A stretch of 42,165 nucleotides of DNA from Planctomycetota bacterium (GTDB taxonomy: Bacteria; Planctomycetota; UBA11346). The stretch spans positions 1 to 42,165 of the forward strand of contig REDP01000161.1 of NCBI GenBank assembly GCA_007693455.1, given 5' to 3'. Below are positions 34,635-36,950 of this stretch, in pieces. Every line of letters begins with the position of its first letter. Within the stretch, counting starts at the first letter, position 1. The translations under genes and the position numbers were made by a program. The notes beneath the pieces are model-generated. The model made no database searches, had not been told where the DNA came from, and saw only the letters and a list, made by a program, of their open reading frames with translations.

Positions 34635-35162
34635 TCAACGCTCTTCAGCAACGGCCTCTTCGCCATGAGCGCTGGCCAGCACTTCGTCCATGGTGCTGCC
34701 CTGCGGATCAGCATCGACAACCTCTACTTCAATGGTGGCTTCAACCTCACCAAAGAGGCGGAGAAGAACTTGATACGTGCCGAGCTGCTTGAATGATTCA
34801 TGCAGGTGCACCTGTTTGGGGTCGATTTCGTAACCACTCTTGGCCAATGACGCAACAATGTCACGAATGCCGACGGAACCAAATAAGGTATTCCCAGAGG
34901 ATACTTTTGCCGCGATTTGCAGGGACATACCATCGATTTGCTTCTTGGTTGCCAAGGCTTGGCCTTCGTGCTCGGCACGACGTCGTGCTGCCTGCTCGCG
35001 CAAGAGCTCGATTTGTCGCTTGGCAGCCTGCGAAGCGGCAATGGCCTTGCCGTAGGGCAAGAGGAAGTTGCGCGCATAACCAGGGCGCACGGCAACGATG
35101 TCACCCATGTTCCCCAATTTGAGCACGTCTTCAGTCAAGAGGACTTCAACGTTTTTAGACAT
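34635..35162 (-). CDS. rplI: 50S ribosomal protein L9
   Basis: 'VEVLLTEDVLKLGNMGDIVAVRPGYARNFLLPYGKAIAAS'; start placed at Met 35162. Confidence 0.94.
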   Translation of the reverse strand: MSKNVEVLLTEDVLKLGNMGDIVAVRPGYARNFLLPYGKAIAASQAAKRQIELLREQAARRRAEHEGQALATKKQIDGMSLQIAAKVSSGNTLFGSVGIRDIVASLAKSGYEIDPKQVHLHESFKQLGTYQVLLRLFGEVEATIEVEVVDADPQGSTMDEVLASAHGEEAVAEER

Positions 35163-35273: not shown

Positions 35274-35531
35274 TTATTCACCCACGTAAGGTAAGAGACC
35301 GAGGAAACGGGCGCGCTTAATGGCGACTTTCAACTGCCGTTGATAGCCAGCACTAATGCCATTACGATTACGAGGGCTGATTTTGCCTTGGGCGCTCACA
35401 TGACGCCGCAAAACATCGATCTCTCGATAGTCAATCTCAAATATATCATCGCGAGTAAAGCGACAGGGTTTTGGGGTTTCCACTACGCGGCGGGCGCGCT
35501 TCTTGCTGTTTTTGCTTTTAAATTTAGCCAT
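35274..35531 (-). CDS. rpsR: 30S ribosomal protein S18
   Basis: '[59 protein letters not shown]'. Confidence 0.95.
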
Positions 35532-35580: not shown

Positions 35581-36054
35581 CTAGAATGGGGGCTCTTCAT
35601 CATCGTAGGACGGAGCAGGATCAGAACGCGAGGGCGCAGCTGGTGCTTGCGCATCGGATGATTGTTCAGAACGCGAGCCGTAACCGCCACCGCTTTCAGC
35701 ACCACCTCCACCAGCACCGCGGGTGCTCAGGAATTGCACCGAGTCGGCAACGACGAGGAGGCGTGAGCGCTTGGCGCCAGTCTGTTTGTCTTCCCATTGG
35801 TCAAGACGCAGGCGACCCTCAAGAAAGCAGGGCTGGCCCTTGGTAAGATATTGACCGACGAGCTCTGCAGTCCGGCCCCAGGCTTCCACATCGACAAACG
35901 TAGTTTCTTCCTTCAATTCACCATCGGCACCTTTGTAACGACGATTGGTTGCAATGGAGAAGTTTGCCACAGCGCGTTCATTGGCAAAAAAGCGCACCTG
36001 CGGATCACGGGTTAAATTACCTGCCAGAAGAACTCGATTGAGATTGACTGCCAT
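35581..36054 (-). CDS. ssb: Single-stranded DNA-binding protein
   Basis: '[39 protein letters not shown]', acidic C-terminal tip 'DDEEPPF'. Confidence 0.95.
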
Positions 36055-36058
36055 AACT

Positions 36059-36442
36059 TCACTCCTCCTGTTCGTTTTCGCTATCGCGCTCACGATCATT
36101 ACGGGCAGCACGTTCGGCAGCCTTAGAACGTTGATCACGAATGGCATCATAAGCCTTGCCATCACGGACTACGATCAACTGGCGCATGATAATATCAGAG
36201 AGACGGGCGCGACGCTCGATTTTTCCCACCACATCAGAGTCAGCTTTAAAATAGCCAATGAGATAGAGGGCGCTGGTCTGGCCAGCAATGGGGTAGGCAA
36301 GCTTGCGCTCTTCCCATTTGTCCAATTCAATCCATTCAGCGCCTTCGCCTTCGTAGGCCTGACGGACTTGCGCTACGGTACCTTCATAGTCCGTACGAGC
36401 GGGGCCAGGGGCAACAAGAATAGTGGTTTCATAGGTACGCAT
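36059..36442 (-). CDS. rpsF: 30S ribosomal protein S6
   Basis: 'MRTYETTILVAPG...WEERKLAYPIAGQTSALYLIGYFKAD'; SD AGAGGAGG just upstream of Met 36442. Confidence 0.93.
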   Translation of the reverse strand: MRTYETTILVAPGPARTDYEGTVAQVRQAYEGEGAEWIELDKWEERKLAYPIAGQTSALYLIGYFKADSDVVGKIERRARLSDIIMRQLIVVRDGKAYDAIRDQRSKAAERAARNDRERDSENEQEE

Positions 36443-36449
36443 TAACAAC

Positions 36450-36620
36450 TTCCTCCTCTGTTTACGTATGCAGAGGGTACACAGTATCCCGAGACTGTGT
36501 ATGCGGGTTCTCACGGACCCGACGTCGGGCGTCGGGGAGGCCACTTACCTGCGTGGCCCCGAGGCAGCGAACATCCTACACACGGATGTTTACGCGGCAG
36601 ACAACGTACGAATACGTTAA
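36450..36620 (-). promoter_or_regulatory. Structured 5' leader of the rpsF-ssb-rpsR-rplI operon (candidate r-protein autoregulatory RNA)
   Basis: Six consecutive perfect stems on the minus strand immediately upstream of rpsF; the most downstream overlaps the SD. Confidence 0.65.
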
Positions 36621-36677: not shown

Positions 36678-36950
36678 TCAGGACGCTTGCAGCGAGGCGT
36701 GCAGCTTTCCAGCCATACGTGATTTATGCCGATTGGCAGCATTCTTATGCAGCACACTGCAGGACTGAGCCTGATCAAGGCGCTTGGCATAGCGGCGATA
36801 GAGCATTTCGGCTTCATCACGGTTGCCATCGTTAATCGCGCGCTCAACCTTCTTGGCGATGGTTTTGAGCTCGGTTTTACGAGCCTTGTTGCGCACACGG
36901 CGCTTTTCATTTTGACGATCGCGCTTTTTGGCGCTAGCAGAATTCGGCAT
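36678..36950 (-). CDS. rpsT: 30S ribosomal protein S20
   Basis: 'MPNSASAKKRDRQNEKRRVRNKARKTELKTIAKKVERAI...HKNAANRHKSRMAGKLHA'. Confidence 0.94.
   Translation of the reverse strand: MPNSASAKKRDRQNEKRRVRNKARKTELKTIAKKVERAINDGNRDEAEMLYRRYAKRLDQAQSCSVLHKNAANRHKSRMAGKLHASLQAS

Follow-up and report, generated by a model that had tools for sequence, protein, structure and literature searches.

The rpsF leader bound by the S6:S18 complex (bS6:bS18) reportedly goes back to two founding papers, Matelska 2013 and Fu 2014. In E. coli this leader consists of an outer stem, which contains the Shine-Dalgarno (SD) sequence, and an inner hairpin, with a 3' bulge whose conserved CC imitates C719/C720 of the 16S rRNA, K60 and R63 of S18 being the expected contacts; mutation of the CC abolishes repression by the leader (Babina 2015, PMC4647458; review PMC10931766). 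The S18 residues K60, R61 and R63 have been tested in E. coli (PMC4647458). We examined nine canonical leaders, that of E. coli (L025) and eight from records of a phage collection that carry a bacterial rpsF (L101-L108), which are named after Staphylococcus, Enterococcus, Listeria and Acinetobacter phages or are unassigned gut records; what they carry suggests that these records, in several cases named as phages, contain bacterial DNA. All nine follow one pattern, consisting of UCCUU, the inner hairpin, 6-8 nt ending in [AU]CC[AG], 1-2 bases and ARGGA.

The window analysed here is a stretch of 42,165 nucleotides from a planctomycete assembly of 334 contigs. Pfam searches bear out the earlier assignment of the gene downstream of the hairpins as rpsF, which is the first gene of an operon in the order rpsF-ssb-rpsR-rplI and has rpsT as the next gene on its 5' side:

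36678-36950, minus strand: rpsT, ribosomal protein S20, the upstream neighbour
36059-36442, minus strand: rpsF, ribosomal protein S6 (PF01250)
35581-36054, minus strand: ssb (PF00436)
35274-35531, minus strand: rpsR, ribosomal protein S18 (PF01084), which keeps AIKRAR
34635-35162, minus strand: rplI, ribosomal protein L9

By alignment, the AIKRAR retained in the S18 of the window covers K60, R61 and R63 of E. coli. S6 was detected in 22 of the 24 genomes of the window's planctomycete class, and the DNA 5' of rpsF from all 22 (the window and 21 others) constitutes the class leader set, in which rpsT again lies directly 5' of the rpsF leader. The window's genus is represented in the comparison by a single other genome, hereafter the sister species (leader L010). 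Two planctomycete genomes, G099 and G242, gave two S6-family matches apiece.

An earlier note had described this leader, from its letters, as an array of six perfect hairpins. The inverted repeats that it listed are indeed present at their minus-strand coordinates, and a scan of the 171 nt from 36450 to 36620 (minus strand, loops of 3-10) yields six perfect stems of 6 bp or more that do not overlap, against a mean of 0.32 in dinucleotide shuffles, of which 0 out of 2000 reached six. The 253-nt leader of the window has a folding energy of -91.4 kcal/mol (z -3.9 versus its own shuffles), and that of the sister species is likewise more stable than shuffles (z -3.4). Once the relatives are taken into account, the leader can be divided as follows:

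36603-36618, minus strand: hairpin 1, AACGTA-TTCG-TACGTT, from inverted-repeat scan and folding, with no counterpart shown in relatives
36570-36590, minus strand: hairpin 2, here P0, with a positional counterpart in about 20 of the 22 class leaders
36561-36563, minus strand: 5' strand of P1, CUC (CCUC with the C before it), pairing with the GAG at 36510-36512
36537-36560, minus strand: P2 hairpin, GGGGCCAC/GUGGCCUC, an extended hairpin 3, with covariation
36518-36536, minus strand: P3 hairpin, CCCGACG-cccga-CGUCGGG
36513-36517, minus strand: UCCGU, unpaired, whose CC(G) element corresponds to the cytosines that S18 contacts in known rpsF leaders; [AU]CC[AG] in 22 of 22 class leaders
36510-36512, minus strand: 3' strand of P1, GAG, with covariation in the class
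36504-36521, minus strand: hairpin 4 (CGGGT/ACCCG), a competing pairing, judged not to belong to the element
36478-36501, minus strand: H5 hairpin (hairpin 5), 8 bp, seen in the window's genus only
36455-36476, minus strand: H6 hairpin (hairpin 6), 6 bp, occupying part of the SD, seen in the window's genus only
36452-36459, minus strand: SD of rpsF, AGAGGAGG, from the sequence

Two of the six hairpins differ from their first description. Hairpin 5 has in fact 8 bp, and the best set of non-overlapping stems does without hairpin 4, containing instead the 7-bp stem of P3. The overlapping palindrome of 12 nt that had been proposed as a competing fold does exist and is part of P3; hairpin 4, its competitor, represents a mispairing. 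We considered hairpin 4 as a part of the element and rejected it in favour of P3, since it clashes with both P3 and P1 and is not conserved in the class; within the genus it shows one single-sided change only (window versus sister species). Hairpins 1 and 4 may be chance inverted repeats. A hairpin just 3' of the rpsT stop, where P0 lies, is found in about 20 of the 22 class leaders, with unrelated sequences and without a T run, and may mark the 3' end of the rpsT message or serve in its processing. A consensus scan detected neither a terminator nor a promoter in the leader, although promoters of planctomycetes do not have to follow this consensus.

Comparison with the 21 other leaders of the class delimits a class-wide core at 36510-36563 (minus strand), formed by P1, P2, P3 and the unpaired UCCGU, which takes up only hairpin 3 (the inner part of P2) and the palindrome (in P3). 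The six hairpins of the window, as judged by what relatives conserve, are thus not one uniform array of equivalents. The motif lies immediately 5' of rpsF in all 22 class leaders, every one of which keeps, exactly or with slight variation, the order (G)UUC - GGGGCC..loop..GGCCUC - variable hairpin - (G)GUCC(A/G)N - GA(A)C; P1, P2 and P3 abut one another, leaving UCCRN as the conserved unpaired joint. P1 is short, with 3-4 bp in the class and just 3 bp in the window, and occurs in the variants UUC/GAA, UCC/GGA, AUC/GAU and CUC/GAG. In P2, whose second pair is a G.U that is typical of the class, 100% of cells in the class alignment are paired and four of the six pairs show double changes, two such changes separating the window from the sister species. 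In P3 double changes affect 5/5 modelled pairs, and the sister species reads CCCGAUG-CCCGA-CAUCGGG.

Two alignments were set aside: in a MAFFT alignment of all lengths (A1) P2 was misplaced in several rows, and A2, in which the window row had been edited by hand, was discarded. In A3, an alignment of ten leaders from sequence alone, 94.6% of cells are paired, compared with 31.5-57.4% in slid controls, and there are 11 double-change cells versus 3.9 in shuffles. The 19-leader alignment, which leans towards the structure because it was fitted to the model, has 96.4% of cells paired (34.6-58.0% in slid controls) and 35 double-change cells versus 7.9 in shuffles, with double changes in 12 of 15 pairs. 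The covariance model R1, built from A3 only and with the window left out, recovers the core of the window with 26 bits, as well as nine other left-out leaders. L010 and L014 gave no match to R1; by hand, P2 and P3 are present in L010 with compensatory changes relative to the window, and L014 has P1 as GCUC/GAGC with CCGU just 5' of its 3' strand. Between the window and the sister species, 10 of 29 pairs carry double compensatory changes and 0 are broken. On these alignments, we regard the covariation as solid for P2 and P3 and as moderate for P1.

The class leaders resemble the S6:S18 leader of rpsF in several respects. They are directly 5' of rpsF, whose operon includes rpsR, they have an outer stem on which the inner hairpin is stacked with little or no 5' linker, and they carry [AU]CC[AG] 1-2 bases 5' of the 3' strand of the outer stem; this tetranucleotide is unpaired, at an equal distance from P1, in the 22 class leaders and in the 9/9 leaders of the Proteobacteria/Firmicutes type. 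They differ from the canonical leaders in having hairpin P3 in place of the 6-8 nt linker between the inner hairpin and the CC, and in that the outer stem P1 is not UCCUU/AAGGA; in the window, furthermore, the SD is not part of the outer stem but follows about 50 nt later. The S6:S18 site of 16S rRNA (C719/C720 region) likewise offers an unpaired CC with A or G as the next base, but no P3-like hairpin separates the preceding helix from this CC. A 16S gene was not found in the window's genome, and in two class relatives that stand in for it the equivalent place reads GCCAA and GCCGA; going by these letters, the likeness of the class motif to the 16S site is one of a few letters. The candidate S6:S18 leader of Chlorobi (Eckert 2020, PMC7247131) is also lineage-restricted and precedes rpsF-ssb-rpsR-rplI. 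As described in the available part of that article, it lacks resemblance to rRNA according to its authors, whereas the class motif keeps the CC, a distinction that we draw from the description.

Covariance models place the class motif apart. The Rfam model RpsF_leader (RF02893) matches neither the window nor 20 class leaders at its gathering threshold of 37 bits, and at a permissive threshold nothing relevant appeared, the sole match being a chance fit of mir-30. This silence is uninformative, because RF02893, which gives the E. coli leader 110 bits, also misses all eight of the other canonical leaders (L101-L108); as a model it is far narrower than the motif as published, covering only part of it. 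Our own model of five canonical leaders (R2) recovers 4/4 held-out canonical leaders with 27-41 bits, but matches no class core and, resting on five sequences, found nothing convincing in 297 planctomycete genomes.

Taken together, the leader probably holds a cis-regulatory RNA, a variant of the autoregulatory S6:S18 leader that is specific to this lineage. The earlier note had left open whether this was such a leader, a divergent version or something new, and the class covariation and the fixed CC element speak well for the S6:S18 type. We call it a variant because by model it is not a plain member, although by anatomy it seems built to work alike; the class motif would have either diverged from the canonical leader or converged on it. 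We postulate a three-way junction of P1, P2 and P3 in which the unpaired [AU]CC[AG] is displayed beside P1, as it is in the canonical leaders and in 16S rRNA at C719/C720. A surplus of free S6:S18 would then lead S18 to grip the cytosines, stabilising the junction and lowering initiation at rpsF, and ssb, rpsR and rplI would follow rpsF through coupling and mRNA decay. Binding and repression by S6:S18, like the coupling, are inferred here, and feedback repression by this complex is the likely function.

How binding would reach the SD seems to vary within the class. In most of its members the 3' strand of P1 holds or closely precedes the SD, and 5-32 nt separate the end of P1 from the start codon; since the SD is then inside or just after P1, direct occlusion is plausible. 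In the window's genus this distance is 65 and 71 nt, with about 50 nt and two extra hairpins, H5 and H6, between the core and the SD, which makes the mechanism in the window less clear. H5 keeps 8/8 pairs in the sister species with six double changes, and H6, whose pairing probabilities are 0.93-1.0, keeps 6/6 with one. We consider both hairpins real, because they are kept with double changes and no broken pair; with two genomes only, they say nothing beyond the genus. That the last stem uses part of the SD holds in part for the window and hardly at all for the sister species, where the SD comes just after the hairpin. The folded leader, with H6 holding part of the SD, might block ribosome loading in this genus, a weakly supported step that we assume here.

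The CCUC of the 5' strand of P1 (36561-36564) can pair either with the GAG beside UCCGU or with the SD (36452-36459). Pairing with the GAGG of the SD has a probability of 0.88 in the sister species and of <0.1 in the window, where it is low because H6 takes one G of the SD. As this pairing excludes the local P1, binding to the core would free the SD instead of hiding it. It is conceivable, though doubtful, that the three-way-junction leader arose separately in the class and converged on the CC, and that the window's genus uses a distant platform of two hairpins rather than direct occlusion of the SD, with the CCUC of P1 possibly switching between core and SD.

An unlikely alternative history is that the element is an autoregulatory leader of independent invention with another ligand (S20, L9, or S6 or S18 alone), the CC being coincidental. 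Lineage-specific ribosomal leaders are common, Chlorobi have, by the available part of its description, a separate S6:S18-type leader of their own that lacks rRNA resemblance (PMC7247131), rpsT lies directly 5' throughout the class, and neither R2 nor Rfam gave a match; however, the CC is invariant, unpaired and at the canonical distance from P1, and the element stands before rpsF and not before rpsT. We find it improbable that the hairpins act with no protein ligand at all, by protecting or processing the rpsT-rpsF transcript or by tuning basal initiation at rpsF. The intergenic position after rpsT, the additional hairpin that follows the rpsT stop in about 20 of the 22 leaders and the outcome of the consensus scan for terminators and promoters would fit such a role, but it leaves unexplained why an invariant unpaired [AU]CC[AG] and a P2 conserved in sequence accompany the covarying stems. 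Short repeats do arise by chance, hairpins 1 and 4 being possible cases, yet as a general explanation this is hardly credible given the shuffles, the class covariation and the absence of broken pairs between the two species of the genus, and a chance origin is already refuted for P2, P3, H5 and H6.

Among 297 genomes of the phylum, strong R1 matches occurred only in the window's family, each of them at rpsF. Matches outside this family (E 1e-4 to 1e-2, the E-values of the R1 and R2 models being rough) were dismissed as noise, comparable ones being located on contigs other than that of S6. The class motif was not evident by eye in a further 32 loci, almost all of them from planctomycetes, nor did R1 or R2 detect it there. 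A conserved stretch of another kind, GGGGCTTTGAG ... CTCAAAGAGAAATATTCAGGAG, precedes rpsF in three leaders (L053, L057 and L070) that come from a rumen-type group of uncultured planctomycetes and from a Thermoguttaceae MAG, and may represent a further type of leader. The 2020 survey of ribosomal leaders (PMC7247131) does not mention planctomycetes in the available part of its main text.

S6:S18 autoregulation is thus likely extended to a lineage that both Rfam and the canonical model miss, and the Rfam RpsF_leader model is shown to cover only a part of the published motif. The class motif suggests that a whole hairpin can stand in for the linker beside the cytosines contacted by S18 while the CC element stays fixed. 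Its members would form a natural series, with the SD inside the core, beside it or about 50 nt away, in which one protein-binding site may be joined to different expression platforms.
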